Assembly: GCA_019429185.1 (NCBI GenBank)
Contig: JAHYJH010000007.1
Span: 1 to 63,631, forward strand
DNA length: 63,631 bases
Direction: 5' to 3'
Source: Vicingaceae bacterium
GTDB taxonomy: Bacteria; Bacteroidota; Bacteroidia; Flavobacteriales_E; Vicingaceae
Part shown: piece by piece, positions 21,029-48,688 of the stretch
How positions within the stretch are numbered: the stretch's first letter is position 1
How the letters are laid out: the number at the start of each line of letters is the position of its first letter
Made by a program: the position numbers and the translations under genes
Notes under the pieces: generated by a model
The model's database searches: none
Told to the model about the DNA's origin: nothing
The model's input: only the letters and a program-made list of their open reading frames with translations

Positions 21029-21895
21029 ATGAGCAAATGGAGTGGTAAAAGTAAAGGCAGTGTGCTGGGGTATCGAATATTTTTGAGTGTTATAAAGATT
21101 TTTGGATTACCATCTACTTATTTTTTACTAAAAGCGGTTACTTATTTTTATTATAAATTTGACACAAAAAGTAGAAATTCTATTGAAGAATTTTACTTGA
21201 ACAGCTTAAAATTTGACATCAAAAAAGCGAAAAAAATAACAAGAGAAAATTTTTTTTATTTTGGTCAAACTTTGGTTGACAGAGCTGCATTTTTGATAGG
21301 AAAAGATAAAAAATTCACTTTCGATTTCAACAATGAGCAATGCTTAATTGATTTACGAAACGAAGGGAAAGGAGGAATTTTGTTAAGTGCTCATGTTGGT
21401 AATTGGGAAACCGCAGGGAATCTTTTAACTTCCAGAATTACATCAACTATTAATGTGTTGATGTTGGATGAAGAAGAAAAAAAAATTAAAAAATATTTAG
21501 AAGTTACAACAGGCGGTTCAAAATTTAATATCATCCCAATTAGAAATGATTTAAGCCACGTAATTAAAATACACAATGCACTGTCTAACAATGAATTTAT
21601 TGCCATACATGCTGATAGATATATAGAAGGAGCAAAATTTATTGAATTGGATTTTTTTGGTAAAAAAGCAAAATTTCCATTAGGACCTTTTATTGTTGCT
21701 TCAAAATTTAACGCTCCTGTAACTTTTGTTTTTGCAGTTAAAGAAAAAAGATATCATTATTTATTAAGTGCAACAACACCAATTAAAGATAAACAAACAC
21801 CAGAAGAAATAGCCGAAAAATTTGTAAAGGAATTTGAAAATAAAATTTTAGCACATCCCGAGCAATGGTTTAATTATTTTGATTTTTATAAATAG
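21029..21895 (+). CDS. LpxL/HtrB-family acyltransferase
   Basis: A membrane-associated lipid A-type acyltransferase. The family motif H(x4)E appears in SAHVGNWETAG, followed by a PLGPF segment and the C-terminal HPEQWFNYFDF. An N-terminal hydrophobic segment (about 15-40) anchors it. Because it sits directly after an ACP gene in a pigment operon, it probably transfers an ACP-bound acyl or polyenoyl chain to a pigment head group rather than to lipid A; this is inference. Confidence 0.87.
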   Translation: MSKWSGKSKGSVLGYRIFLSVIKIFGLPSTYFLLKAVTYFYYKFDTKSRNSIEEFYLNSLKFDIKKAKKITRENFFYFGQTLVDRAAFLIGKDKKFTFDFNNEQCLIDLRNEGKGGILLSAHVGNWETAGNLLTSRITSTINVLMLDEEEKKIKKYLEVTTGGSKFNIIPIRNDLSHVIKIHNALSNNEFIAIHADRYIEGAKFIELDFFGKKAKFPLGPFIVASKFNAPVTFVFAVKEKRYHYLLSATTPIKDKQTPEEIAEKFVKEFENKILAHPEQWFNYFDFYK

Positions 21896-24637: not shown

Positions 24638-24892
24638 ATGGACAATATTAAATTACAATTAAAACAACAAATTATTGAACAATTAAATTTGGAGAGCGTT
24701 AGTGTTTCTGATATTGCTGACGATATGCCCCTTTTTGGTGAAGGGTTAGGATTAGATTCCATTGATGCACTTGAGTTAATTGTTTTAATGGAAGGCAATT
24801 ACAACATCAAACTTCTAAATCCAGAAGAAGGGAAAAGTGTTTTTCAATCAATCAACACCATGGCAGATTACATTGCAAAACATAAAAAGTAA
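24638..24892 (+). CDS. Acyl carrier protein 2
   Basis: The phosphopantetheine site is GLGLDSIDALELIVLME (Ser about 41). It is a close paralogue of the ACP at 46191: both begin with a QLKQQIIE-type segment and end with an INTMADxI motif. It starts 1 base after the preceding gene's stop. Confidence 0.92.
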   Translation: MDNIKLQLKQQIIEQLNLESVSVSDIADDMPLFGEGLGLDSIDALELIVLMEGNYNIKLLNPEEGKSVFQSINTMADYIAKHKK

Positions 24893-28265: not shown

Positions 28266-29252
28266 ATGGAAAGCAACATCATTATATACAATACCCAAGA
28301 TGGTAAAGCAAATGTGGCTCTTTACGCAAAAGATAATACAGTTTGGATGAACCAAAACCAATTGGCTGAACTTTTTGACACCTCTAAGCAAAACATAGGA
28401 CAACATATTTCAAGTATACTGAAAGATAACGAGTTAGATATAAATTCAGTTGTAAAGAATTACTTTACAACTGCCGCTGATGGCAAGCAATATGAGGTAA
28501 TGTTCTATAGTCTTGAAATGATTTTGGCTATTGGATTTAGGGTGCGCAGTAAAAGAGGCACTCAATTTAGAATTTGGGCTAACCAAAACCTAAAAGAGTA
28601 TATGATAAAGGGCTTTTTGATGGATGATGAACGCTTGAAAAACCCAGACGGCAGACCCGATTATTTTGATGAATTGCTAGAGCGTATTCGTGAAATACGA
28701 ACTTCCGAAAAAAGATTTTATCAAAAAGTAAAAGATTTACTGGCTTTGAGTAGCGATTATGATGCTACGGATAAAGCCACACAACTATTTTTTGCTGAAA
28801 CGCAAAACAAACTGCTTTTTGCCGTTACCAAACAAACCGCAGCAGAATTGATTGTGTTAAGAGCAAATGCGAATTTGCCAAATATGGCTCTTACTTCTTG
28901 GGCTGGTAGTAAAGTAAGAAAACAAGATATTATTATTGCTAAAAACTACTTAAACAAAGACGAGATAGATACCTTAAACCGTCTGACAATTATTTTTCTT
29001 GAAACTGCCGAACTAAGAGTAAAAGAACGAAAGGACATTACGCTACAGTTTTGGCGAGAAAATGTAGATCGTATTTTGCAGTTTAACGATAAAGAAATAC
29101 TTAAAAATGCAGGGGCTATTTCGCACCAACAAATGGAAGAACAAATAAAATTTGTTTACGAACAATTTGATAAAAAACGTAAAGAATTTGAAGCCAAACA
29201 AGCCGATTTAGAAGATTTAAAAGCATTAGAAGAAAAAATCAAAAAGAAATAA
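28266..29252 (+). CDS. RhuM-family protein
   Basis: A virulence RhuM-type protein (328 residues) with N-terminal IIYNTQDGKANVALYAKDNTVW, WMNQNQLAELFDTSKQNIGQHI (helix-turn-helix-like) and a central LEMILAIGFRVRSKRGTQFRIWAN. A charged coiled-coil tail occupies about 285-328. These proteins are common on mobile and restriction islands; the molecular function is not settled. It follows the restriction remnant by 3 bases, so the two likely formed one unit. Confidence 0.87.
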   Translation: MESNIIIYNTQDGKANVALYAKDNTVWMNQNQLAELFDTSKQNIGQHISSILKDNELDINSVVKNYFTTAADGKQYEVMFYSLEMILAIGFRVRSKRGTQFRIWANQNLKEYMIKGFLMDDERLKNPDGRPDYFDELLERIREIRTSEKRFYQKVKDLLALSSDYDATDKATQLFFAETQNKLLFAVTKQTAAELIVLRANANLPNMALTSWAGSKVRKQDIIIAKNYLNKDEIDTLNRLTIIFLETAELRVKERKDITLQFWRENVDRILQFNDKEILKNAGAISHQQMEEQIKFVYEQFDKKRKEFEAKQADLEDLKALEEKIKKK

Positions 29253-29405
29253 TGAAAGATCAAGATTTTATTCAAGCCAACGCATACAGCCACACACATT
29301 GCCAAGCCACACCAATCAATGCTTGGAAAAGAGTGTCTCTGTCCAACCCCACGCCCAAAACAACAGACAAACCCACGGACGAAAAAGAACTCCGAAGCGA
29401 TAACT

Positions 29406-29517
29406 GCACCTACACGCAAGCAGGGGTTCAGTGCTTCTATAAAAAAGAAGTGCTAAATTCAAGCGTTGTGCATCTAATGAAGTTTGGTGTCGAAAATCCC
29501 CACCTGCGTGTAGGTGC
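29406..29517. repeat. Inverted repeat forming the right end of cassette 1 (attC-like)
   Basis: GCACCTACACGCA at 29406-29418 pairs perfectly with TGCGTGTAGGTGC at 29505-29517 across an 86-base spacer. The outer edge runs directly into GCAAAACATTAT and the lolA signal peptide. The size and layout resemble a foldable recombination site, but integron attC consensus boxes are not clearly present. Confidence 0.7.
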
Positions 29518-30148
29518 AAAACATTATAGTGCATTTATTATATTTATTGTATTATTTTTTTCAGCAACATTAAATGCTCAAGAAAAAAAGGCATTAACCA
29601 ACCCTGAAAAATTTAAAACCGAACTCAAACTTCAAGCGAAAGAAACTAAAACAATTGTAGCTTCTTTTACCCAAGAAAAATTCATGAGTTTTATGAAAGA
29701 ACCCCAGCTATCGGAAGGTATATTTTACTATGAAAAAGCAAATAAAATGAGATGGGAACAAAATTTACCCACCAATTATGTGCTATTAATTAATGAAGAA
29801 ACTGTTCGGATTAAAGATAATGGAAAAGAAAAAAACATGAAAGGAGCAAACAAAATGATGAGTAAAATCAATACCTTAATGCTGGGATTAGTAAATGGGG
29901 ATATCATTGAAGATAACTCATTTACAACAAATTATTTTGTCTCTGATACTTATTATATTGTGCAACTGATTCCCAAACAGAAAAGACTGCAATCTATTTT
30001 TAACACCATAGAACTTTCTTTTTCTAAAACAACAACAAGACTAAAAGTACTTACCTTTTATGAAAGTGCAGAAGATAAAAGTGTAATCAAGTTTTTTGAC
30101 GAAAAGTTTAATCAACCTATTCATTCATCTCTATTTTTAACATTATGA
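29477..30148 (+). CDS. LolA-like outer membrane lipoprotein carrier protein
   Basis: A periplasmic LolA-fold carrier. Its hydrophobic signal segment YSAFIIFIVLFFSATLNA is followed by the LolA-like FTQEKFMSFMKEPQLSEGIFYYEKANKMRWEQ. In pigment clusters it probably chaperones the hydrophobic product or cluster-specific lipoproteins to the outer membrane. The frame is open back to 29252, but the part before the signal segment is translated cassette DNA. I place the start at ATG 29477, which adds a 14-residue foreign N-terminus; the original start was probably MKHYSAF, lost at the cassette junction. The stop overlaps the next ATG (ATGA). Confidence 0.8.
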   Translation: MKFGVENPHLRVGAKHYSAFIIFIVLFFSATLNAQEKKALTNPEKFKTELKLQAKETKTIVASFTQEKFMSFMKEPQLSEGIFYYEKANKMRWEQNLPTNYVLLINEETVRIKDNGKEKNMKGANKMMSKINTLMLGLVNGDIIEDNSFTTNYFVSDTYYIVQLIPKQKRLQSIFNTIELSFSKTTTRLKVLTFYESAEDKSVIKFFDEKFNQPIHSSLFLTL

Positions 30149-30531
30149 TATTGCTTAAAAATGATTTTTTTGAAATTGAAAAGTTAGCACATTCAACAGG
30201 GTTAATTGTTTCAACCATTAAAATAAATTCTTTACACACCATATTTGATGGACATTTCCCCAATAATCCAATTACACCAGGAGTTGTGCAATTACAAATA
30301 ACTAAAGAAGTTTTAGAAGATGTTTTTCAACAAGAATTGCAATTAAAAGAAATGAAAAATTGCAAATTTTTAGCCATTCTAAATCCAACTGAAACACCCA
30401 TTTTTGATTTAGAGATAAATTATGAAACGATAGATGATGTTGCTTTTCAGGTTTCAGCGAAAGGAACTACAGCTAATGAAAGTAAAACTTTCTTTAAATT
30501 TACAGCCAAATATGAAATGAATCATGAATGA
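30145..30531 (+). CDS. FabZ-like 3-hydroxyacyl-ACP dehydratase
   Basis: Hotdog dehydratase with the FabZ signature FDGHFPNNPITPGVVQLQ, where His is catalytic. It is the second dehydratase of the cluster, the other being at 21998, and aryl polyene pathways typically use two. It is coupled to lolA by a 4-base overlap. Its stop overlaps the ATG of an inserted KilA-N gene. Confidence 0.88.
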   Translation: MILLKNDFFEIEKLAHSTGLIVSTIKINSLHTIFDGHFPNNPITPGVVQLQITKEVLEDVFQQELQLKEMKNCKFLAILNPTETPIFDLEINYETIDDVAFQVSAKGTTANESKTFFKFTAKYEMNHE

Positions 30532-31352
30532 GTAAAACAAAAAAAATAAATGTAAAAGGCATTGAAATAACAATTTTTGCCCAGAATGAGATTGATTTTA
30601 TCAGTCTAACTGATATGACTGGAGGCTTCAAAGAAGGAAGTGGACTAATTGGAAAATGGATTACCAATAAAAACACGTTGGAATATTTAGGTATTTGGGA
30701 AAAAATAAACAATATTAATTTTAATTACCCCGAATTCGGGGTAATTGTACAAGAAGCTGGTGTAAACAGATTCATAATGTCCGTAGGTCAGTGGGTTGAC
30801 AGAACAAGTTCTAAAGGAATGGTAGTAAAAGCTGGAAGATATGGAGGAACGTATGCACATAAGGACATTGCTTTTCATTTTGCAATGTGGCTAAGTCCTG
30901 AATTTCAGATATACTTGATAAATGAATTTCAACGATTAAAAAATAACGAAAGTAACCGCCTTAATCTCGAATGGAATTTACAACGCACACTTGCTAAAGT
31001 AAATTATAAAATCCATACAGATGCTATCAAAGAAAATTTAATTCCAGAAACACTTTCCAAAAAACAAACGGCTATCATTTATGCCAATGAAGCTGATGCT
31101 GATGTGCTCAATATGGCACTTTTTGGAAAAACAGCACAGCAATGGCGAAACGAAAATTCTGATGTAAAAGGCAATGTAAGAGATGTCGCAACTATTCAAC
31201 AGTTGGTGTTTTTATCAAATTTAGAAAGCATTAATGCGTTGTTAATCAAACAAAACATCAACCAACAAAAACGACTGAAGCAACTTAACGAAATTGCTAT
31301 TTCGCAAATAAAATCGCTTTTAAGCAATAATATAATTAAAAATATAGTATAA
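30528..31352 (+). CDS. KilA-N domain DNA-binding protein inserted in the pigment operon
   Basis: A phage- and virus-related KilA-N/Bro-type protein of 274 residues. The KilA-N domain occupies about 10-135, with ISLTDMTGGF, LIGKWITNKNTLEYLGIWE and GRYGGTYAHKDIAFHFAMWLSPEFQIYLINEF. The C-terminal half is helical (KIHTDAIKENLIP onward). It has no known role in pigment synthesis. It overlaps the dehydratase stop as ATGA, so it is translationally coupled as if part of the operon. A perfect 24-base palindrome lies inside the gene, and a TTCCTGA-CA-TCAGGAA hairpin follows it. Confidence 0.85.
   Translation: MSKTKKINVKGIEITIFAQNEIDFISLTDMTGGFKEGSGLIGKWITNKNTLEYLGIWEKINNINFNYPEFGVIVQEAGVNRFIMSVGQWVDRTSSKGMVVKAGRYGGTYAHKDIAFHFAMWLSPEFQIYLINEFQRLKNNESNRLNLEWNLQRTLAKVNYKIHTDAIKENLIPETLSKKQTAIIYANEADADVLNMALFGKTAQQWRNENSDVKGNVRDVATIQQLVFLSNLESINALLIKQNINQQKRLKQLNEIAISQIKSLLSNNIIKNIV
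30723..30746. repeat. Perfect 24-base palindrome inside the KilA-N gene
   Basis: The arms AATTACCCCGAA and TTCGGGGTAATT abut with no spacer and encode NYPEFGVI, within a part of the KilA-N domain that varies between relatives. It may be a small inserted element that kept the frame, or a binding site for the protein itself. Confidence 0.6.
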
Positions 31353-32613: not shown

Positions 32614-34317
32614 ATGAATAAAAAGAACAACAGATTTCGTTTTCTTAAACTTTCTTTAAAATTAATAGGGATATTATTGTTTTGCTTTATCGTTTATTTT
32701 GTTTGGGACATTAGAATGCCTACGCCTCCTATTGACGAACGGTTTACCTTGGGACAATATAAACGAATTGAAGTTGCTCCTAACCATTTTGTAGTAGGTA
32801 ATTGTTGGTTAAAAAAGAATGATTATGGAATTTGGGAAATGTATATTGAAGGAGAACCTTATGAAAGAGGTTTGATTTATGGAGTATTGGCAGAAGAATT
32901 AATGGAAAAACAAGAAGTACATTTCGTAAATCAAATCAACGAAATTGTACCTAACAGATTTACCCTTTTTTTTCTGAAAATGTTTGTAGCTTGGTTTAAT
33001 CGAGACATAGACCAATATGTTCCAAAAGAAAATTTAACCGAAATTTATGGAGTTTCACAATCATTTTCAGATAAATACAATTATATAGCTCCTAAATATT
33101 ATCGAATTTTAAATTACCATGCAGCCCATGATATCGGTCATGCCCTTAAAGATTTAAGCTTAGTTGGCTGTACTTCTTTTTCTGTAAATAATAATTTATC
33201 TGCTGATAGTTCGCTACTTATTGCTCGGAATTTCGATTTTTATATGGGAGATGAATTTGCAGAAGATAAACTTATTTTGTTTGTAAAACCTTCCGAAGGA
33301 TATGGCTTTGCATCTTACTCTTGGGCTGGATTAACTGGTGTTGTATCTGGCATAAACGAAAAAGGGTTGACCGTAACTTTAAATGCTTCAAAATCTGAAA
33401 TACCAACTGGAGCAAAAGATCCTATTTCGTTATTGGCTAGAGAAATTTTACAATATGCAGCAAACATAAATGAGGCAATTGCAATTGCTGAAAAAAGGGC
33501 TGTTTTTGTTTCGGAATCATTGCTTATTGGTTCTTCAGAAGATAATAAATCTGTTGTAATTGAAAAATCGCCAGAAAAAATAGACGTGTATGATGCTAAT
33601 GAAGAACTTGTTGTTTGTGCTAATCATTACCAAAGTGCTGTTTTTCTGAATGATTCTGCTAATGTGCTGAATATTAAAAACAGTGATTCAAAGCATCGTT
33701 TTGATAGATTAACTCAATTGTTACAACAAAACTATCCTATTGATATTTTAAAAGCAACTCAAATTTTAAGAGACAAAAATGGAATAAATAATGAATTTAT
33801 AGGTTACGGTAATCCAAAAGCTATCAACCAATTAATGGCACACCATAGTATCGTTTTTAAACCACATCAACAACAATTTTGGATTTCCACGCAACCCTAT
33901 CAATTAGGTAATTTTATTGGTTATAATTTAACTGATGTGCTAACTAAAAAAAACAGCTCAGATAATATTTATATAGATTCTTTAACCATTGCTTCTGATA
34001 ATTTTCTTAATTCTGATGCTTATAAAAAATATGAATTATTCAAAAAAATTAAACAACGTATTCAAAAGCAAGTTTTATTAAATGTCCCTTTTTCGTTGAA
34101 TGAGACACAAGAAAAGCAATTTATCCAAACCAACCCTAAAAGCTATATAACCTATATGACTTTAGGTGAATATTTTGAGAAATTAGGAGATTATAATAAA
34201 GCAATTTCTTATTATCAAACAGCATTGAATTACAGTGTTGCATCTAAAGATGAAGAAGAGATAATAAAAAAGAAGATAGAAACTTGTAACAAACAAATCA
34301 ATAAAAATGGAAACTAA
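32614..34317 (+). CDS. C45/choloylglycine-hydrolase-type Ntn hydrolase with C-terminal TPR
   Basis: A membrane-anchored protein (one helix at about 12-32) whose catalytic domain resembles acyl-CoA:6-aminopenicillanate acyltransferases. The candidate nucleophile is Cys186 in LVGCTSFS, followed by ARNFDFY and GVVSGINEKGLTVTLNA. These enzymes cut themselves so that the Cys becomes N-terminal, and then act on amides or acyl thioesters. Two TPR-like helices (GEYFEKLGDYNKAISYYQ) end the protein. It could transfer or hydrolyse acyl groups on the periplasmic side. Confidence 0.8.
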   Translation: MNKKNNRFRFLKLSLKLIGILLFCFIVYFVWDIRMPTPPIDERFTLGQYKRIEVAPNHFVVGNCWLKKNDYGIWEMYIEGEPYERGLIYGVLAEELMEKQEVHFVNQINEIVPNRFTLFFLKMFVAWFNRDIDQYVPKENLTEIYGVSQSFSDKYNYIAPKYYRILNYHAAHDIGHALKDLSLVGCTSFSVNNNLSADSSLLIARNFDFYMGDEFAEDKLILFVKPSEGYGFASYSWAGLTGVVSGINEKGLTVTLNASKSEIPTGAKDPISLLAREILQYAANINEAIAIAEKRAVFVSESLLIGSSEDNKSVVIEKSPEKIDVYDANEELVVCANHYQSAVFLNDSANVLNIKNSDSKHRFDRLTQLLQQNYPIDILKATQILRDKNGINNEFIGYGNPKAINQLMAHHSIVFKPHQQQFWISTQPYQLGNFIGYNLTDVLTKKNSSDNIYIDSLTIASDNFLNSDAYKKYELFKKIKQRIQKQVLLNVPFSLNETQEKQFIQTNPKSYITYMTLGEYFEKLGDYNKAISYYQTALNYSVASKDEEEIIKKKIETCNKQINKNGN

Positions 34318-35584
34318 TCTAATCCAAAACAAAAATAACCATCATCTTCAACATCAAAAATTGCAAAATTTGGTGAAGTATGTAAGTATTAATTCTACGT
34401 ATTATAAACGCTTATTTTCAAAACACAAGATAGATGTAACTACCATTAATACGGTAACTGATTTAACAAAAATACCTTTTACAACAAAAGATGATTTAGC
34501 CAATTTTAATGATGATTTTTTATGTGTTGATAAAACGCAAATTGCTGATTTTGTAACTACTTCTGGAACGATAAGCGACCCTGTAACTTTTTATCTTACA
34601 AAAAATGATATAGATAGGTTAGGTAATAATGAAGCAGCAGCATTAAATTGTGCTGGAGGAACATCGGACGATATTTATCAATTAATGACTACGCTAGACA
34701 AACGATTTATGGCTGGTTTAGCTTATTATTTAGGCGTTAGTAAGTTGAATGCTGGAGCAGTAAGAGTTGGTCCTGGAGCTCCTTACTTGCAATGGGAATC
34801 CATCAGACGATTTTCACCTACCGTTTTAATAGCCATACCTTCTTTTATTCCAAAACTAATTGAATATGCAAAAGAAAACAGCATTGATTTTAAAAGTTCA
34901 AGTGTGCAAGCTATCATTTGCATTGGAGAACCCATTCGGAATGCCGATTTTACACCCAACGAATTAGGAAAGCGTATTCTATCGCAATGGGATGTGAAAT
35001 TATATTCAACGTATGCTTCCACAGAAATGGGGGCAGCTTTTACAGAGTGCAACGAAGGAAAAGGCGGACACTTAAATCCCGACATTTTGATACTTGAAGT
35101 AGTAGATGAAAAAGGAAACCATGTTGCTAATGGAGAGTTAGGAGAAGTAGTTGTTACTACCTTAGGAGTGGAAGGAATGCCCTTATTAAGATATAAAACT
35201 GGCGACTTGTGCCATGCTTATTATACACCATGTAATTGTGGGAGAACAACTCCCCGACTTGGTCCAGTTATGGGCAGAAAACAACAAATGATAAAATTTA
35301 AAGGAACTACTATTTTTCCTACAGCTATTTTTGATGTATTGGATATGATGGCTGAAATAACTATTTATCAAGTAGAAGTGTCAAAAGATGAATATGGCAA
35401 TGATTTAATAAGTATATTGCTGCCAAAAGAAATAGAAACTCCAGATTTTCAACATAAAATAACTTCATTATTCAAATCGAAATTAAGAGTAACACCTCAA
35501 TATCGTTTTATTGAAACCAGCATTTTAACTAACCAAGTATTTAAAGAAGAAAAAAGAAAACCAGAAAAATTGATTTATGTTTGA
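34307..35584 (+). CDS. PaaK-like AMP-forming acyl-CoA/ACP ligase
   Basis: An adenylate-forming ligase close to phenylacetate-CoA ligases. It has VTTSGTISDPVTFYLT (P-loop), YSTYASTEMGAAF (motif 5), LLRYKTGDLC (the Asp of A8) and MGRKQQMIKFKG, followed by a small C-terminal domain. It likely activates the 4-coumarate starter made by the ammonia-lyase and loads it on an ACP. It overlaps the upstream gene by 11 bases. Confidence 0.87.
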   Translation: METNLIQNKNNHHLQHQKLQNLVKYVSINSTYYKRLFSKHKIDVTTINTVTDLTKIPFTTKDDLANFNDDFLCVDKTQIADFVTTSGTISDPVTFYLTKNDIDRLGNNEAAALNCAGGTSDDIYQLMTTLDKRFMAGLAYYLGVSKLNAGAVRVGPGAPYLQWESIRRFSPTVLIAIPSFIPKLIEYAKENSIDFKSSSVQAIICIGEPIRNADFTPNELGKRILSQWDVKLYSTYASTEMGAAFTECNEGKGGHLNPDILILEVVDEKGNHVANGELGEVVVTTLGVEGMPLLRYKTGDLCHAYYTPCNCGRTTPRLGPVMGRKQQMIKFKGTTIFPTAIFDVLDMMAEITIYQVEVSKDEYGNDLISILLPKEIETPDFQHKITSLFKSKLRVTPQYRFIETSILTNQVFKEEKRKPEKLIYV

Positions 35585-40207: not shown

Positions 40208-40687
40208 ATGAAAATAAGTTTTTTTGTATCAATTGTTTTATTTGTTTTTTTTTCGAGTCAGTTATCTGCTCAAGAAAAAATGGATAAACAGCATTTTTAC
40301 AACATAATTTCTTCTGAAAATTTGGAGTTGATTGATGCCGAAATCATTAAAATGAATGCAGCTTCTAAATCAACATTTAATCCTTATAAAGGAGCTTTAT
40401 TAATGAAAAAAGCAGGATTAGAAAAAAATCCAACAGAAAAATTAAAATTTTTTAAAGAAGGAAAACTATTGCTTGAAACAGCCATAAACAATGACAACCA
40501 AAACGTGGAATTACGCTTTTTAAGATTAATTATACAAGAAAATGCTCCCAAATTTTTAGGTTATCATTCAAACATAAAAGAAGACGTAAATTTTATTCAA
40601 GAAAATAGTAATAAACTTTCTACTGTTTTAAAAAACATACTACTCGATTATTCTGAAACATCAAAAGAACTAAAACTGAATGAATAA
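40208..40687 (+). CDS. Small secreted protein of the pigment cluster (function unknown)
   Basis: 159 residues with a clear signal peptide ending SSQLSAQE, then helical, charged sequence (EIIKMNAASKSTFNPYKGALLMKKAGL). It may be a periplasmic helical-repeat protein. It overlaps darA by 8 bases, so it is almost certainly part of the pigment operon. Confidence 0.7.
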   Translation: MKISFFVSIVLFVFFSSQLSAQEKMDKQHFYNIISSENLELIDAEIIKMNAASKSTFNPYKGALLMKKAGLEKNPTEKLKFFKEGKLLLETAINNDNQNVELRFLRLIIQENAPKFLGYHSNIKEDVNFIQENSNKLSTVLKNILLDYSETSKELKLNE

Positions 40688-41585
40688 AAGAGTATTATTT
40701 CTATATTTTACGCAATCAGGGCAATTAAGAGAAATTGTAAATAGATTTTCACAACCTTTTCTAGAGGCAGGTTTTTTATGTGATGTTGTGCGTGTTTTTC
40801 CTGAAAATGCATTTCCTTTTCCATGGAAAATGGATCAGTTTTTTGAAGTAATGCCAGCTTGTGTGTTGGAGCAACCAACTACATTAAGTCAGATGAGTTT
40901 TAAGTACGATAAATATGATTTGATTGTGTTTGCTTACCAACCTTGGTTTTTATCACCAAGCATACCTGCAACATCATTATTTTTCAACGAAGAACTAAAA
41001 AAAAGAATTAAAGATACACCAGTTGTTACGTTAATTGGGTCAAGAAATATGTGGATTAGTGCCCAGGAAAAAATAAAAAGACAACTAAAAAATGTTGGAG
41101 GATTGCTTAAAGGAAACATTGTTTTGGTTGATAAACATAGTAATTTAACAAGTTTAGTTACTATAATTTATTGGATGAAAACTGGAAAAAAAGACAAATA
41201 CCTAGGTATTTTCCCTAATCCAGGCGTAGCCCCAAGCGACATAGATAGCACAAAACTATATGGAGAAACAGTAGTGGAAGCATTAAAAAACAATACATTA
41301 AATAACCTACAAGAACAGTTGATAGAGCAAAAAGCGGTTGAGGTAAAACCAAATTTAATGTTCGTAGAAACTCGTGGAGCTGTGTTATTTAAATTATGGG
41401 CAAATTTTATTGAAAAGAAGAAAAATAAAACTTTTTGGTTGCGTATATTCAAATATTATTTGTTTATTGCAATTTTTCTTGTTGCACCAATCGTTATAAC
41501 AATAAATACACTTATTTTTAAACCTTTCATAATTAATAAAATTAAACATAAAAAAAATTACTTTTTACAAACAGAATTAGCGTGA
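40680..41585 (+). CDS. darA: Dialkylresorcinol condensing enzyme DarA
   Basis: Recognised from the N-terminal VLFLYFTQSGQL, a flavodoxin-like start typical of DarA proteins. It continues with FAYQPWFLSPSIPATSLFFN, VVTLIGSRNMW and a membrane helix near the C-terminus (about 258-285). With DarB it makes the dialkylresorcinol (or cyclohexanedione precursor) half of flexirubin. darB follows 1 base after its stop. Confidence 0.87.
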   Translation: MNKRVLFLYFTQSGQLREIVNRFSQPFLEAGFLCDVVRVFPENAFPFPWKMDQFFEVMPACVLEQPTTLSQMSFKYDKYDLIVFAYQPWFLSPSIPATSLFFNEELKKRIKDTPVVTLIGSRNMWISAQEKIKRQLKNVGGLLKGNIVLVDKHSNLTSLVTIIYWMKTGKKDKYLGIFPNPGVAPSDIDSTKLYGETVVEALKNNTLNNLQEQLIEQKAVEVKPNLMFVETRGAVLFKLWANFIEKKKNKTFWLRIFKYYLFIAIFLVAPIVITINTLIFKPFIINKIKHKKNYFLQTELA

Positions 41586-41586
41586 A

Positions 41587-42741
41587 ATGAAGAACGGTAA
41601 CAATAATGTATATATTAATAAATCAGCTATTTATTTGCCAAATCAACCTGTTTCAAATGATGAAATGGAAGATTATCTTGGAATAATAAAAGAGATAAAA
41701 ACAAGTTCAAAAAAAATTGTTTTACGCAATAATGGAATAAAAAATCGTTATTACGCTATTGATAAATTAGGAAAAGCAACCCATACCAATGCTGAAATGA
41801 CTGCATTAGCAGTTAGAAAATTAGTTGAAGACAATACCAATGAGTTGAAAAATGTTGAGTTATTAGCTTGTGGCACATCATCACCAGATCAAATGATGCC
41901 TTCACATGGAGTAATGGTACATGGTTGGTTGCCAGAAACTTCAGCAATAGAAGTAGTTTCACCTTCAGGAAATTGTTGCTCAGGAATGCACGCATTAAAG
42001 TATGCCTACCTTTCCATAAAATCGGGAGAGGTTGAAAATGCAATTTCAACTGGTTCAGAAAGATTATCAAGAGTGTTAAGAGCCGACACATTTAATGAAG
42101 AAGTGGAACAACTTATTCAATTAAAAAAAGACCCATTCATCAGTTTTGAAAAAGAATTTTTGCGTTGGATGTTATCCGATGGTGCTGGAGCATTTTTTCT
42201 TTCCAATAAAAAAAATGAAACAGGTTTGAGCATACGAATAGATTGGTTAGAAAGTGTTTCTTATGCACATGAAAAGGAAACTTGTATGTATATGGCGAGT
42301 GAGAAATTGGAAGACGGAACATTGAAAGGATATATGGACTTTGATGCTGAAGAAATTATCTCTAAATCTGTGCTTAGTATGAAACAAGACACAAAATTAT
42401 TAGGTGAAAATATTGTGCATTTAGGATTTGACAAACTCAAAACTATATGTGAAAAAAGAAATTTTAATGTTGATGAAGTTGATTATTTTTTACCACACCT
42501 TTCTAGCGAGTTTTTTCGTTCAAAAATTGCTCAAAAATTAATTGATAACCAAATGGAAATTCCAGCAGCGAAGTGGTTTACCAATTTAAGTGCTGTTGGT
42601 AATGTTGGTGCAGCGTCTGTTTATTTAATGATAGATGAGCTTCTTAATGCTGGAAAACTTAAGTCTGGAAATAAAATTATGCTTGCCGTTCCTGAAAGTG
42701 CCCGATTTTCTTATGTTTTCGGATTACTAACTGTTTGTTAA
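41587..42741 (+). CDS. darB: DarB, KAS III-like ketosynthase of dialkylresorcinol synthesis
   Basis: A FabH-like condensing enzyme joining two acyl units to form the resorcinol ring. The Cys of the Cys-His-Asn triad is C131 in GNCCSGMHA, the His is in FLPHLSS, and the Asn is in GNVGAAS. It lies 1 base after darA. The C-terminal ends directly at the next ATG. Confidence 0.88.
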   Translation: MKNGNNNVYINKSAIYLPNQPVSNDEMEDYLGIIKEIKTSSKKIVLRNNGIKNRYYAIDKLGKATHTNAEMTALAVRKLVEDNTNELKNVELLACGTSSPDQMMPSHGVMVHGWLPETSAIEVVSPSGNCCSGMHALKYAYLSIKSGEVENAISTGSERLSRVLRADTFNEEVEQLIQLKKDPFISFEKEFLRWMLSDGAGAFFLSNKKNETGLSIRIDWLESVSYAHEKETCMYMASEKLEDGTLKGYMDFDAEEIISKSVLSMKQDTKLLGENIVHLGFDKLKTICEKRNFNVDEVDYFLPHLSSEFFRSKIAQKLIDNQMEIPAAKWFTNLSAVGNVGAASVYLMIDELLNAGKLKSGNKIMLAVPESARFSYVFGLLTVC

Positions 42742-43155
42742 ATGAAGAAAAACAACATTCCACAAGATAAAAGTGCCTTGGAAAACTACACCAAAGACAT
42801 TTGTTATGCCTTGGATGAGAAAGGCAATTATACCACTGTTGCCAGTAGTGGATGGGAAGTGAAATCAACAGCATTAGATGTAACTTGGGATGAAATAAAA
42901 GAAAGAATATCAACTATTAAAAACAAAGCAATTGCAGGAGAAGTAAGTCCCATTCTATTTTTTATGGAACTCAAATTAATGGATATAAAAACATTAGCAG
43001 CCTATACAGGTTTTTGGTCATGGCAAGTAAAAAAACACCTGAAACCAACTAATTTTAAAAAACTATCTGAAAAAAAATTACAGAAATATGCTTCGGTTTT
43101 TGAAGTTAGTGTTGAAACATTAAAAACAATGGAGCTTGATGAAAATAAACTTTAA
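42742..43155 (+). CDS. Small conserved protein with an XRE-like helical C-terminus
   Basis: 137 residues. The first half (SSGWEVKSTALDVTWDEIKE) is of unknown fold. The second half (MDIKTLAAYTGFWSWQVKKHL to LQKYASVFEVSVETLKTM) has the spacing of a Cro/XRE helix-turn-helix. It starts at the base after the darB stop and overlaps the next gene, so it belongs to the pigment operon. It could be a regulator or a protein partner; neither is shown. Confidence 0.65.
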   Translation: MKKNNIPQDKSALENYTKDICYALDEKGNYTTVASSGWEVKSTALDVTWDEIKERISTIKNKAIAGEVSPILFFMELKLMDIKTLAAYTGFWSWQVKKHLKPTNFKKLSEKKLQKYASVFEVSVETLKTMELDENKL

Positions 43156-44155
43156 CCACATCCAAACAGCTCATTGTGAGAATGGAGTTACCGTAAATTT
43201 ACTTCAACATGCAGGCGTTTCTCAAATTACAGAACCACTTGCTTTTGGAATAGGCTCAGGATTATTTTACATTCATATTCCATTTTTAAAAGTAAATAAT
43301 GGACCTGCAATATCTTTTAGAACAATGCCTGGTTTGATTTTTAAAAGAACTTGCAAAGCACTTCAAATACCAGTTGTTAGGCAAAAATTCCGTTCAAAAG
43401 AGGAAGCTCAAAAGGTATTAGACAATTGTCTGAAAAACGGACAACCAACAGGCTGTCAGGTGGGAGTTTATTATTTAACCTATTTTCCTAAAGAATACCG
43501 TTTTCATTTCAATGCACACAACATCATTGTTTTTGGGAAAGAGGAAGACAATTATTTAATTAGTGACCCAGTAATGGAAGATTTCACAACACTTTCTTCC
43601 TATGAGTTGGAACGTGTTCGCTTTGCAAAAGGAATGTTGGCTCCTAAAGGACAACTCTATTATCCTAAAGCAACTAAAAGTTTTGATGAAAAATTACTTC
43701 AATCTGCCATTCAAAGTGGGATTAAAAGAAATGTGAGAGATATGCTTCATATTCCTGGTAATGTTGCAGGCGTAAGCGGAATTAACTATACGGCAAATAA
43801 AATCAGGAAATTAAGAGATAAATTAGGAGTGAAACAAGCTGGGCTTTATCTTGCACAGTTAGTGCGTATGCAGGAAGAAATTGGAACTGGAGGAGGAGGA
43901 TTTCGTTTTATTTATGCTGCTTTTTTACAACAAGCTCATCAATTTGTTGCTAATGACAATTTATTGAAAATTTCTGAACAATTCACGCAATCAGGAGATT
44001 TGTGGCGTTCGGCTGCAGTTCAAGCATCAGGAATTTACAAAGGAAGAATTACCGCTCAATCAGATTTTAATGAAATGGCAAATTATTTAGATGAAATAGC
44101 CCTGCTCGAGAAAGATGCTTTTAAAAATCTTTCAAAAATGAAATGGAATAACTAA
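43139..44155 (+). CDS. BtrH-like acyltransferase (BtrH_N plus DUF4872)
   Basis: 339 residues by the longer TTG start; I use the ATG at 43139 (338 residues). The N-terminal half has AHCENGVTVNLLQHAGV, FGIGSGLFYIH and LISDP, fitting the BtrH_N domain with a Cys-His-Asp-type site. The C-terminal half (about 180-330) fits DUF4872. BtrH moves an acyl group from an ACP to an acceptor in butirosin synthesis, so this is a good candidate for joining the polyene to the resorcinol; that is inference. It is coupled to both neighbours. Confidence 0.78.
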   Translation: MKINFNHIQTAHCENGVTVNLLQHAGVSQITEPLAFGIGSGLFYIHIPFLKVNNGPAISFRTMPGLIFKRTCKALQIPVVRQKFRSKEEAQKVLDNCLKNGQPTGCQVGVYYLTYFPKEYRFHFNAHNIIVFGKEEDNYLISDPVMEDFTTLSSYELERVRFAKGMLAPKGQLYYPKATKSFDEKLLQSAIQSGIKRNVRDMLHIPGNVAGVSGINYTANKIRKLRDKLGVKQAGLYLAQLVRMQEEIGTGGGGFRFIYAAFLQQAHQFVANDNLLKISEQFTQSGDLWRSAAVQASGIYKGRITAQSDFNEMANYLDEIALLEKDAFKNLSKMKWNN

Positions 44156-44904
44156 TGCAGGAAATGTCCATACATATTGAAAATCTAAGCTATAGTTATA
44201 AAGGTCAATTAGGAAATACACTTTCCGATATTAATTTAAAAATTGAAGCAGGTTCAACAATTGGGCTTTTTGGTCCAAATGGTGCAGGAAAAACAACCTT
44301 AATGCACTTAATGACAGGTATTTTAAAAAATAATAACGGAACAATAACGCTGTTTGGTTCAAAAGTGGGAGCAAGGCACAAGCAAACAAACAATTTATTT
44401 GGTTTTGTTCCTCAAGATTTTTCTTTTTATCAAGAATTAAGTCCTATTGAAAATTTACAATTCTTTGGAACTTTTTATGGACTTTCAAAACAAAAAATAG
44501 CCCAACGCACAGAAGAATTATTAACCGTGTTTGGATTAACAGAAGTAAGCAAAAAACCTGTTTCAACATTTTCGGGCGGAATGAAAAGAAAAGTAAATTT
44601 AGCTATTGGAATTATTCATCAACCAAAAATAATTTTTTTGGATGAACCTACAGTTGGTGTTGATGTGCAATCGAGATGTGCAATTATTGACTATATAAAA
44701 AAACTAAATAAGCAAGGAGCAACACTTGTTTATACATCGCATCAACTCAGTGAAGCAGAAGATATTTGTGAGAAAATTGTATTGATAAATGAAGGCAAAA
44801 TTATTGCTTTTGAAGATATATCAACACTTTTAGCAAAACACAACGAAAAAAACTTAGAAAATCTTTTCCTAAAACTTTCTAAAGAAACCATTTCTAATGT
44901 ATAA
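44155..44904 (+). CDS. ABC transporter ATP-binding protein
   Basis: A complete ATPase domain: Walker A GPNGAGKTT, Q loop VPQDF, signature FSGGMKRK, Walker B IIFLDEPT and switch His in YTSHQL. It is the ABC-2 exporter type and pairs with the permease that overlaps it by 8 bases. It probably exports a pigment precursor or related lipid. Confidence 0.93.
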   Translation: MQEMSIHIENLSYSYKGQLGNTLSDINLKIEAGSTIGLFGPNGAGKTTLMHLMTGILKNNNGTITLFGSKVGARHKQTNNLFGFVPQDFSFYQELSPIENLQFFGTFYGLSKQKIAQRTEELLTVFGLTEVSKKPVSTFSGGMKRKVNLAIGIIHQPKIIFLDEPTVGVDVQSRCAIIDYIKKLNKQGATLVYTSHQLSEAEDICEKIVLINEGKIIAFEDISTLLAKHNEKNLENLFLKLSKETISNV

Positions 44905-46180
44905 ACTTTGGGCTTGTATAATAAAAGACGTTAAGTTAATTACACGAGATTGGGTAGGACTTTCCTTGATGTTTGTTATGCCTATATTGTTAGTAATTGT
45001 TATTACAGCACTTCAGGCTGGTACTTTTGAGTTGGTAAACGAAAATAAAGTTCCATTGTTGATTCAAAATAACGACAATGATGCAATTAGCTTGGAATTA
45101 GAAAATACACTCGAAAAAATAGGAATTTTTAAAATTATTGAATTAGATAAAAAAACTTCTAAAGAAACTATTGCTGAAAAAATGAAAGAAACAGAGGCTT
45201 TGGTTACAATTTTAATTCCTGAAAATTTCTCAACGCAAGTTCAACATAAAGTAGCGGATTTCACTAAAAATACCTTGCAAGAATTTGGGTTGGAAGCGGA
45301 AAAAATACCTCAAAACAACAACTTATTAATTAATGAACTTACGTTGTATTATCATCCGGTTTTACAAGAGTCATATCGAAAAAATTTACTTAATGCCATT
45401 AGAAGTGCAGTTCAAGTAGTTGAAAGCAAACAAATTATTAGCACCATATACAGTTCTATTAATGAAACAGCCATGCCCGATTATATTTTAAACAATTTTG
45501 AAACGCAGCAAATTCACATTAATGAAATTCCAGTTTCTCGTGATGGGAGTGCCGTAATTCCTAATGCTTCTCAACACAATGTTCCTGCATGGACTATTTT
45601 TGCTATGTTTTTTATTATTACCTCACTTGGAAGTGCTGTAGTTAAAGAAAAAAATAGTGGAAGTAGTTTGAGACTAAAAACACTACCAACCAATTTTTTA
45701 ACAACTATATTTTCGAAACAAATTACCTATTTGCTAGTAGCCATGAGCCAAGTTTTTGTGATATTTTCTACAGGCGTATTTCTGTTTCCATTTTTAGGAT
45801 TGCCAGCACTAAATATTCCAACCGATAGTGTTGGGTTAATTTTGGTTTCATTGATAAGCGGATGGTGTGCGGTTAGTTATGCAATAGTGGTTGGTGTTTT
45901 TTCCGAATCGCAAGAGCAAGCAAATGGTTTTGGAGCTATTTCAGTAGTAATTCTTGCTGCATTTGGAGGTATTTTAGTTCCTAAATTTGCCATGCCCGAA
46001 TCGTTTATGTTCTTTTTAAAAATTTCTCCCATGCATTGGAGTCTTGAATCTTATTATGGATTATTTTTAGAAGGTGGAAAATTTAGTGATATTGTAAATA
46101 ATGTAATACCTTTGCTACTTATTACCATATTTCTTCAAATAATAGCTTATGTAGGTTTAAAGAAAAACAATTTAATTTAA
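44897..46180 (+). CDS. ABC-2 type transporter permease
   Basis: 427 residues with one N-terminal membrane helix (about 20-42), a large extracytoplasmic domain (45-225), and five C-terminal helices (about 228-425), including GSAVVKEKNSGSSLRLKTLP. This is the typical layout of ABC-2 export permeases. It overlaps its ATPase gene. Confidence 0.9.
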   Translation: MYKLWACIIKDVKLITRDWVGLSLMFVMPILLVIVITALQAGTFELVNENKVPLLIQNNDNDAISLELENTLEKIGIFKIIELDKKTSKETIAEKMKETEALVTILIPENFSTQVQHKVADFTKNTLQEFGLEAEKIPQNNNLLINELTLYYHPVLQESYRKNLLNAIRSAVQVVESKQIISTIYSSINETAMPDYILNNFETQQIHINEIPVSRDGSAVIPNASQHNVPAWTIFAMFFIITSLGSAVVKEKNSGSSLRLKTLPTNFLTTIFSKQITYLLVAMSQVFVIFSTGVFLFPFLGLPALNIPTDSVGLILVSLISGWCAVSYAIVVGVFSESQEQANGFGAISVVILAAFGGILVPKFAMPESFMFFLKISPMHWSLESYYGLFLEGGKFSDIVNNVIPLLLITIFLQIIAYVGLKKNNLI

Positions 46181-46190
46181 AAAAACAAGA

Positions 46191-46460
46191 ATGAATAAAG
46201 AGCAACTTAAAGCACAACTAAAACAGCAAATAATAGAATCACTTAACCTTATAGGGGTAAAACCAGAAGATATAAAAGATGATACCATTCTTTTTGGAGA
46301 AGAATTGGGTCTTGATTCGATAGATTCATTAGAATTAATCGTTTTATTGGAAAGAAAATATGGAATTAAAATCAATGATCCAAAAGAAGGTAGAAAAGTA
46401 CTTATTGACATAAACACTATGGCTGATTTTATTGAACAAAATAGCTCAAAACAAAATTAA
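46191..46460 (+). CDS. Acyl carrier protein 3
   Basis: The phosphopantetheine site is LGLDSIDSLELIVLLE (Ser about 43). It is paralogous to the ACP at 24638 and starts the second ACP-KS-CLF triad. Confidence 0.92.
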   Translation: MNKEQLKAQLKQQIIESLNLIGVKPEDIKDDTILFGEELGLDSIDSLELIVLLERKYGIKINDPKEGRKVLIDINTMADFIEQNSSKQN

Positions 46461-46461
46461 T

Positions 46462-47649
46462 TTGGAACGCATTTTCATAACAGGAATAGGAATAATAACT
46501 TCTTTAGGAGAATCACCTGATGAAAATAGAATTGCCCTTAAACAGGGAAAATGTGGAATAACGGATTTAGAACTCGTTCAAACTCGATATGCAGGTAAAA
46601 TACCATTCGGTGAAATTAAAATTAATACCGAAACATTAAAAAACCAATTAAAAGCCACTGAATCAGGGGTAACTCGAACATCACTTTTAGCTCTTCATGC
46701 ATTTGAACAAGCCATTAATGATGCTAAGCTTTCAGTTCGTGAAATAACAAGTAGTGAAACTGCTTTCATCAATGCCTCAACAGTTGGAGGAATGTGTTTG
46801 ACAGATGAACTCTATAAGGATGCAAACAATTTGTCAATAAAATCTTCATACTTATCTTCCTATGATTTTGGTTCGGTAGCTATTTATTTGCAACAACGCT
46901 ATCAAATTAGAGGAATAGTTAACTCGATAAATACAGCCTGTTCTTCATCAGCAAATGCAATTATGTATGGTGCAAGATTAATTAAAAATGGATATGCCAA
47001 AAGAGTTATTGTTGGTGGAACTGATAGTATAGCCAAATTTACCTTAAATGGGTTTAATTCACTCATGATTTTATCGCCCGAAATTTGTACACCATTTGAT
47101 AATAATAGAAAAGGATTGAATTTAGGTGAAGGAGCCGCATATCTTGTGTTGGAAGCAGAAGAAACCTGTAAATCAAAGCATGTTTATGCTGAACTTACTG
47201 GTTTTGCTAATACCAATGATGCTTTTCATCCTTCATCACTCTCTATCGAAGGAGATGGACCTTTTTTGGCGATGAAAAACACACTTGATGTTGCTAACCT
47301 TACTCCATCTAAAATTGATTTTATAAATGCACACGGAACAGGTACCGAAAATAATGATGAGGTAGAAAGCAGAGCCATGCTACGACTTTTTGAAAAAGTA
47401 CCTTCTTTTGCATCAACAAAATCTAATATTGGACACACACTCGGAGCGAGTGGTGCTATTGAAGCAGTTTATAGTGTGTTGAATATTATGCATCAAGAAA
47501 TTTATCCCAATCTTGGCTTTGAAAATCCAATAGAATCAACTAAGTTAACCCCTGTTTTATCATACTCAAAAAAAGAAATTTCGCACGTACTTTCAAATTC
47601 GTTTGGTTTCGGAGGAAATTGCTCATCACTTTTGTTTTCTAAAATTTAA
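46462..47649 (+). CDS. Beta-ketoacyl-ACP synthase (FabF-like), module 2
   Basis: An active condensing enzyme with C160 (TACSSS), H291 (NAHGTGT), H325 (IGHTLG) and NSFGFGGNCS (numbered from 46462). A TTG start giving MERIFITGIG is assumed, 1 base after the ACP stop; a TTG at 46432 would overlap the ACP by 29 bases. It is the paralogue of the KS at 24913. Confidence 0.9.
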   Translation: MERIFITGIGIITSLGESPDENRIALKQGKCGITDLELVQTRYAGKIPFGEIKINTETLKNQLKATESGVTRTSLLALHAFEQAINDAKLSVREITSSETAFINASTVGGMCLTDELYKDANNLSIKSSYLSSYDFGSVAIYLQQRYQIRGIVNSINTACSSSANAIMYGARLIKNGYAKRVIVGGTDSIAKFTLNGFNSLMILSPEICTPFDNNRKGLNLGEGAAYLVLEAEETCKSKHVYAELTGFANTNDAFHPSSLSIEGDGPFLAMKNTLDVANLTPSKIDFINAHGTGTENNDEVESRAMLRLFEKVPSFASTKSNIGHTLGASGAIEAVYSVLNIMHQEIYPNLGFENPIESTKLTPVLSYSKKEISHVLSNSFGFGGNCSSLLFSKI

Positions 47650-47653
47650 GGTT

Positions 47654-48688
47654 ATGCTTTACATTCATTCAACATCCTGTATTTCTGCCCAACATACTTT
47701 TGATGATGTGAATTTTGATGTACTAAATCCAGTAGTAGAAAATAAATTAGTGGCTGTTGAACCAAACAGTAATCAAATTCCAAACGCTGTATTAAGAAGA
47801 ATGGGTAAAGCGGTTAGAATGGGTATTAAAGCAGCCTTATCCATTGTTAATAATCAATCTGAATTAAAGGGAATTATCATTGGAACAGCCAATGGAGGAA
47901 TGGAAGATTGTATTAAATTTTTAAATCAAATTATTGATTACGATGAAGGAACACTAACGCCAACGAATTTTGTACAAAGTACAGCAAATAATATTGCAGC
48001 ACAAATTGGTTTGTTTACATCAAATAAAAATTATAACATTACGCACGTTCATCGTGGATTGGCTTTTGAAAATGCGGTTATTGATGCCATGATGTTGGTT
48101 AAGGAGCATCCAAACTCAACATTTTTACTTGGAGGAGTTGATGAAATATCAACCTATAATTATACCATATCATTATTAGATGGTCTTTATAAAAATGAAG
48201 AAGGGAAAAATAATGATTTATACGAAACAGAAACTGCTGGATCTGTTGCTGGTGAAGGTGCTGCAATGTTTTTGGTTAATGGAAAAAAGCAAAACGCACA
48301 AGCAACATTAAAAGCAATACAAACTATTCACACTACTGATGAAATAACCGTAGAAGCTAACTTGAAAGATTTTTTAGCAACCCATTTAGCTGATGGCGAA
48401 AAGTTAGATTTATTTTTATCAGGCGAAAATGGCGATTCTAGATTAAGTAAATACACCAAAATAACCGAAAAAATAGCTGATATCACAACGCTTAGATACA
48501 AACACCTAACAGGTGAATTTCCTACAGCTTCGGCACTTTCGCTATGGTTTGCTTGTAATTTTATTGAAACTCAAAAAGTGCCAACTAATATGGTAAAATC
48601 TGGTTCAATACCAACTGAAATAAATACCATTTTAATTTATAATAACTACACCGGAATTCAACATAGTTTTATGTTGGTAAGCCGATAA
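47654..48688 (+). CDS. Degenerate ketosynthase, chain-length-factor-like, module 2
   Basis: 344 residues from the ATG before LYIHSTSCIS (the longer open frame lies within the preceding gene). The nucleophile region reads ITHVHRGLAFENAV with no Cys, and the usual His motifs are absent (LFLSGENGD, RYKHLTGEF). It probably pairs with the KS encoded 4 bases upstream. It is the paralogue of 26096-27076. Confidence 0.82.
   Translation: MLYIHSTSCISAQHTFDDVNFDVLNPVVENKLVAVEPNSNQIPNAVLRRMGKAVRMGIKAALSIVNNQSELKGIIIGTANGGMEDCIKFLNQIIDYDEGTLTPTNFVQSTANNIAAQIGLFTSNKNYNITHVHRGLAFENAVIDAMMLVKEHPNSTFLLGGVDEISTYNYTISLLDGLYKNEEGKNNDLYETETAGSVAGEGAAMFLVNGKKQNAQATLKAIQTIHTTDEITVEANLKDFLATHLADGEKLDLFLSGENGDSRLSKYTKITEKIADITTLRYKHLTGEFPTASALSLWFACNFIETQKVPTNMVKSGSIPTEINTILIYNNYTGIQHSFMLVSR

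Follow-up and report, generated by a model that had tools for sequence, protein, structure and literature searches.

Flexirubins are orange pigments of many Bacteroidota, in which they serve as a chemotaxonomic marker, and their aryl polyene and dialkylresorcinol (DAR) halves are joined by an ester. Here we analyzed a window of 63,631 nucleotides (nt), meaning the whole stretch under study, from a Vicingaceae bacterium (GenBank assembly GCA_019429185.1, contig JAHYJH010000007.1, positions 1 to 63,631 of the forward strand), with a focus on darH (43139-44155, plus strand, as are all genes below unless stated), whose product we propose as the carrier-protein-dependent enzyme that probably forms this ester. 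The darA and darB genes of C. pinensis were reported to give the flexirubin DAR heterologously (PMC3992019), and P. chlororaphis is described as producing free dialkylresorcinol from a cluster of darA, darB, darC, darS and darR (PMC6403133). Since the resorcinol is made in these systems by darA and darB without DarH, DarH probably acts after resorcinol synthesis. For the subsequent joining step, no paper assigning it to a BtrH-type protein was found in the open-licence literature, where FlxW was the only suggestion found for an enzyme that joins polyene and DAR. Arcuflavin of Azoarcus has been described as a polyene-DAR hybrid with an ester bond predicted from mass spectrometry, and its cluster carries a "BtrH-like peptidase" gene, darE (PMC3949708). 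In Azoarcus sp. BH72, darE (azo0290) is like darH in where it stands within the operon, behind darB-darD and ahead of an ATP-binding cassette (ABC) gene, a likeness of position and description that matters because Azoarcus belongs to another phylum (PMC3949708).

At the enzyme level, BtrH is described as the acyl carrier protein (ACP):aminoglycoside acyltransferase of butirosin biosynthesis (PMC10318531; PMC8430323). Compared by domain and description, BtrH and DarH share the N-terminal Pfam domain BtrH_N; however, the substrate that BtrH acylates is an aminoglycoside, at its C1 amine (PMC8430323), whereas DarH, as proposed, would pass a polyene to a phenol. CcbD is reported to follow a ping-pong mechanism in which a catalytic Cys, with a His and a Glu, acts on an acyl group bound to a carrier protein before the acceptor nucleophile attacks, and to accept various fatty acyl groups (PMC12945683); LmbD, from the lincosamides, is grouped here with CcbD from that paper only, with no matched structure. 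For CtaG, from closthioamide biosynthesis, a transfer of the 4-hydroxybenzoyl group of CtaH onto the chain on CtaE has been proposed (PMC6772006). Both enzymes are like DarH in their Cys and His with an acidic residue and, as proposed for CtaG and for DarH, in carrier-bound donors, but unlike the reaction proposed for DarH in that CcbD forms an amide and CtaG would carry out a peptidyl transfer, not an esterification.

The darH open reading frame runs from an ATG at 43139 to a stop at 44155 and encodes 338 amino acids. A preliminary description of this DNA had placed a BtrH_N plus DUF4872 protein at this position, and the Pfam scan bears it out, with 165.4 bits for BtrH_N (PF14399; gathering threshold 29.7, E 1e-48) and 191.9 bits for DUF4872 (PF16169; gathering threshold 28, E 9.8e-57), so that the gene is real and its domain matches lie far beyond chance. 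The two domains together span nearly all of the protein (residues 13-145 and 157-332, counted in a 339-residue frame from 43136), and darH is the only BtrH_N match of the genome (E <= 0.001). Moreover, DarH matches the NCBIfam equivalog NF053550, "BtrH-related acyltransferase DarH", with a score of 465.6 bits (the family cut-off is 300) that extends over positions 1-324 of 325, a model that all 63 sequences of our DarH alignment (A3) also match. It is a full-length member, in which no difference from the family was found, and the family name gives no donor, acceptor or reaction. Because the family is already named in NCBIfam, DarH belongs to a known family, and what is new is the specific, testable role.

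The structure of DarH was predicted with AlphaFold2 from 63 aligned sequences, giving a confident model (mean predicted local distance difference test score, pLDDT, 88.7; predicted template modeling score 0.88), which was compared with solved folds by Foldseek and VIA-align. Three solved proteins matched the predicted model over its full length (residues about 5-334, 295-304 aligned, Z 21.6-24.1, 11-13% identity), namely CtaG (9qvl, Z 24.1, 3.5 Å over 295 residues), CcbD (9dkr_B, Z 22.1) and AziU3 of azinomycin biosynthesis, compared by fold (Z 23.3 for 8gs1_D, from the AziU2-U3 complex, and 21.6 for 7wuw_C). The next entries were led by C39 peptidase domains, which reached at best Z 14.2 over 132 residues, all in the N-terminal half, and no further family came near CtaG, AziU3 and CcbD among the families listed in that comparison. 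When the solved structures were searched by sequence, using either DarH itself or the profile of a second alignment (A2, 10 sequences including four paralogues 24-29% identical), E values of about 0.6 were the best obtained for AziU3 and for a C39-like peptidase, and CtaG and CcbD were absent from the A2 profile search at E <= 10. The remaining hits were coiled-coil designs and other chance matches; none of these sequence matches was used as evidence, and the fold search was used instead.

Three residues of the BtrH_N part are invariant in 63/63 sequences of A3 and in 10/10 of A2: Cys13 (codon TGT at 43175-43177, with M1 at 43139), the proposed nucleophile; His127 (43517-43519), the proposed catalytic base; and Asp143 (43565-43567), the proposed third catalytic residue. 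These roles are suggested by the invariance and by likeness to CcbD and CtaG. In the model, Cys13 lies at the N-terminus of the first helix (helix 12-23, in a model numbering that is one less). The PDB titles of CtaG name the variants C11A, H128A and D144N, which suggests the same Cys/His/Asp set as in DarH, and the spacing between the residues is close (114 and 16 in DarH, 117 and 16 in CtaG). Furthermore, an E..GTGG..FR signature in the DUF4872 part (E246-R256, 43874-43906) is invariant in the 10 sequences of A2 and may constitute an acceptor-site or structural motif.

In the window, darH belongs to a tight operon on one strand, in the order hypothetical gene, darA, darB, darG, darH, ABC transporter gene, permease gene and ACP gene, with successive gaps of -8, 1, 0, -17, -1, -8 and 10 nt. 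Its membership of the darA/darB operon, as claimed beforehand, was confirmed (40680-44155). The darA gene (40680-41585), in which no Pfam or NCBIfam model match was found, is named by synteny and by the published operon order (PMC3949708, Table 1), and darB (41587-42741) encodes the dialkylresorcinol-forming ketosynthase (NF053539, 609.9 bits against a cut-off of 550). Downstream of darH follow the genes of an ABC transporter ATP-binding protein (44155-44904, PF00005) and an ABC-2 type permease (44897-46180, PF12698). The ACP gene (46191-46460, PF00550), which had been described as a direct neighbor of darH, is not one: it starts at 46191, 2.0 kb past darH, with the two transporter genes in between. 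It is one of three ACP genes in the window with the DS motif of the phosphopantetheine site, and its product is 60% identical over 81 amino acids to the ACP of the polyene cluster (24638-24892), which may carry the polyene acyl chain once it is complete. The dar operon has its own set of ACP, ketosynthase (KS) and KS-like genes (46191-48688), whose KS is 45% identical to the polyene KS at 24913; given these identities, the set may be a duplicate of the polyene genes. A single such set was observed in five other dar stretches (L096, L097, L098, L101 and L105).

DarH probably makes the flexirubin ester as a papain-like acyltransferase that depends on a carrier protein, and its first rank among the candidates is well supported. 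By analogy with CcbD and CtaG, a polyenoyl-ACP supplied by the flx polyene machinery would dock on DarH, Cys13, activated by His127 and Asp143, would take over the polyenoyl chain as an acyl-enzyme thioester, and one of the phenolic hydroxyls of the dialkylresorcinol that DarB and DarA produce would attack this intermediate, releasing the aryl ester. The ABC transporter of the operon would probably handle the product or a precursor. No test in this analysis refuted DarH as the ester-forming enzyme. The same proposal in the preliminary description is partly supported: the ranking of DarH stands, on its fold, its Cys/His/Asp residues, its co-occurrence with DarA and the presence of relatives of the two named rivals in resorcinol-free polyene clusters, and the argument from an adjacent ACP gene falls; the support is partial because we infer the reaction, because the co-occurrence is shared with DarG and the ABC transporter, and because that argument was inaccurate.

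The distribution of these genes was examined in 296 Bacteroidota genomes, taken in one even draw at a minimum completeness of 90. Above the family cut-offs, DarH was found in 23 genomes, DarG in the same 23, DarB in 24 (with at most six candidates scored per genome) and FlxA, the marker of the polyene half, in 25, the sets being nested, so that one genome (G238) has DarB and FlxA without DarH and another (G118) has FlxA only. Neither of these two has a DarA match (E <= 1e-6) or a BtrH_N match. DarA was searched, like the permease and the rival acyltransferases discussed below, in 25-30 chosen genomes; it was matched in 25 of 30, comprising the 23 DarH genomes and two more (G298 and G299). Consequently, in the genomes tested DarH tracks DarA rather than the polyene genes alone. 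No other dar gene lies within the 19.9 kb fetched around DarB of G238, for which reason it looks like a lone gene and not like a resorcinol operon lacking DarH; in this genome (L086 and L087) a polyene cluster with FlxA, LpxL-like, C45 and MMPL-PlsC genes was observed, with the DarB-family gene on another contig and no match to DarA, DarG or DarH. Any match to DarH was found in 24 genomes, distributed over 11 of 140 genera, and since the genomes are related, these counts are not independent events. At E <= 1e-60, FlxA matches 204 of the 296 genomes, presumably through histidine ammonia-lyases, and only the 25 matches above cut-off were used.

At the level of loci, the best 80 of at least 573 confirmed relatives were surveyed, and DarG lies at most 114 nt upstream of DarH in 79 of them, the exception being L177, where the sequence ends. 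Of these loci, 62 could be judged, having 5 kb or more of upstream and 6 kb or more of downstream sequence; DarG was present in all 62, DarB in 60 (within 6 kb), DarA in 57, an ABC gene in 56 (at most 6 kb downstream), a permease in 54 and an ACP in 53. In one genome (G017), darG and darH stand together on a different contig from darA-darB. DarB genes below cut-off (G254, G276 and a second copy in G182), with no other dar gene in the 5.7-19.9 kb fetched, were not counted as dar operons, and BtrH_N plus DUF4872 paralogues below the DarH cut-off (G158, G210, G265 and G269), with no dar genes in the fetched stretches, where the neighbors of three of them were scanned, were not counted as DarH. 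A search of plasmids returned no dar-type DarH; its 51 records were all below 60% identity, and 44 came from Acinetobacter. On one Acinetobacter plasmid (L201), a BtrH_N protein (with DUF4872 according to the annotation of another record) was seen with two PaaI thioesterases and a TetR regulator as its neighbors. Three plasmid loci (L196, L197 and L198, from Phocaeicola, Prevotella and Bacteroides) have a DarB-type ketosynthase gene immediately behind a TetR or helix-turn-helix (HTH) regulator, and no other dar gene is annotated in the stretches shown.

Several points weigh against DarH as the ester-forming enzyme. DarG is equally linked to DAR, and among 30 genomes searched the ABC permease occurs in the same 23 as DarH (the match in G017 being weak, 27% identity), so that the choice of DarH rests on its fold and its conserved residues. 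The ester reaction is assigned to DarH by analogy, and the structural relatives whose chemistry was considered here form amides, not aryl esters. No genome among the 296 has DarB above cut-off without FlxA; the pattern expected of an enzyme that requires both halves is consequently checked from one side, and the other side rests on the published systems. In addition, a locus from a metagenome assembly of unstated completeness (L185, G297) has darG-darH with no DarB or DarA match, DarB being present in the other eight of the nine locus genomes checked, and BtrH_N plus DUF4872 proteins also occur away from dar genes. Finally, the published proposal for the joining step names another protein, the "ligase-like" FlxW (PMC3992019).

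In a tentative variant, possible but less likely than not, DarG and DarH form a two-protein aryl-ester synthase that moves the polyene chain from ACP to phenol, with DarG as an obligate partner of HTH fold and not a DNA-binding regulator. The darG gene (42742-43155; NF053545, 189.8 bits against 170) lies directly upstream of darH, with an overlap of 17 nt, and encodes a small protein with a Cro/Xre-like HTH region. The C-terminal part of DarG is weakly HTH-like, as 13 homologues out of 42 match the HTH_26 model at E <= 0.1, the best of them at 3.1e-4; its predicted structure has block-mean pLDDT values of 93-97 over residues 61-130, the fold search placed short HTH matches on top with none at E <= 0.001, and its profile gave one weak match (E 0.0084). 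DarG was also considered as an ACP and rejected, since it is a member of NF053545, lacks the DS motif and has the HTH-like region. We propose DarG as a dedicated partner or regulator of DarH, and a DarG-DarH synthase, if true, would extend CcbD/BtrH-type chemistry from amides to esters.

Among the explanations that give the ester to another enzyme, the likeliest, although improbable, is that the LpxL-like acyltransferase (21029-21895, PF03279) or the PlsC-type domain of an MMPL exporter that is also fused to methyltransferase domains (13108-16941, minus strand, by domain scan) takes the polyenoyl chain off the ACP and places it on the resorcinol and that DarH does something else. The preliminary description had named both as competitors; they belong to acyltransferase families, are encoded in the cluster and were each matched in 24 of 25 polyene/dar genomes searched; however, their relatives also occur in polyene clusters without resorcinol genes. 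The LpxL-like protein is found in G118 and G238, both without a DarA or DarH match, and the MMPL-PlsC protein at full length in G238, whereas the G118 match covers residues 14-808, the exporter part, without PlsC. Similarly, none of the dar proteins had a match in the aryl polyene cluster of E. coli CFT073, where a gene annotated as a glycosyltransferase carries an LpxL-like domain (24% identity, 110 bits) and a lysophospholipid acyltransferase gene is present. The apeD and apeJ mutants of this strain are reported to accumulate late intermediates, and a role in joining the polyene to its lipid anchor has been proposed for the two enzymes (PMC8253772). For marine Flavobacteriia, the published gene lists group acyltransferases of the AAT, lipid A and phospholipid types with the polyene genes, apart from darA/darB (PMC5932025). 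One genome (G099) with darA-B-G-H and FlxA has no LpxL-like or MMPL-PlsC match, nor was a C45 protein found in it; as one assembly gap could explain all three absences, this genome is counted once and lightly. Because these enzymes are present in polyene clusters without dar genes, the LpxL-like, PlsC and C45 enzymes probably make or anchor the polyene. In a further genome (G285:C12:42660-46358), an MMPL-PlsC-like frame was matched across two internal stops.

Somewhat more doubtful is an accessory role of DarH in the dar operon, either as a C39-like processing or quality-control enzyme of the adjacent ABC exporter or as an enzyme that acylates a target other than the resorcinol. The N-terminal fold shared with C39 peptidase domains, the proximity of an ABC gene in most judgeable loci and the HTH-like region of DarG are consistent with it, but the full-length fold matches of DarH are CtaG, AziU3 and CcbD, not peptidases, and darG and darH stay paired in the 6 of 62 loci with no ABC gene within 6 kb, as well as in G269, where the permease is elsewhere. 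A fusion of C39 and exporter was looked for, and the ABC genes of the dar operon are open reading frames separate from darH.

AAT-family enzymes exchange acyl groups, which brings a further candidate into consideration, a C45/AAT-type autoproteolytic acyltransferase or hydrolase (32614-34317; NF040521, 220.3 bits against 85; PF03417), which, like FlxW, was beyond the list of the preliminary description. In the window its gene immediately precedes flxY, and in the other loci looked at it lies near flxY; nevertheless, the protein is very unlikely to make the ester, being matched in 27 of 28 genomes searched, G118 and G238 included, but not in G099, where DarA and DarH are both present. Least probable of all is that the FlxW of Schoner et al. 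joins the halves; this suggestion is published, and the passages of the paper concerned with it report no test (PMC3992019).

Around the dar operon, FlxA (17176-18702, a tyrosine ammonia-lyase; NF053541, 799.8 bits against 700), FlxB (400.5 against 340), LolA2 (168.5 against 125) and FlxY (34307-35584, a putative acyl-CoA ligase; NF053551, 619.7 against 520) exceed their NCBIfam cut-offs, as do DarB, DarG and DarH, and judged by these models the polyene cluster is a flexirubin cluster. The LolA2 model covers only residues 95-295 of its open reading frame (29252-30148), whose true start is therefore probably further downstream. Within the polyene operon, a RhuM-family gene (28266-29252; PF13310, 356.1 bits) lies between the deacetylase and LolA genes, and a KilA-N gene (30528-31352; PF04383, 70.3 bits) between those of the dehydratase and the glycosyltransferase. 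The order deacetylase, LolA, dehydratase and glycosyltransferase was found in several other loci (e.g., L127, L139 and L158).

In brief, DarH, with its proposed catalytic residues named, is a single, probable candidate for the flexirubin joining step. If the proposed role is true, DarH would offer an enzyme for the esterification of phenols with carrier-bound acyl chains, and it would account for the absence of flexirubin where a polyene cluster comes without dar genes.

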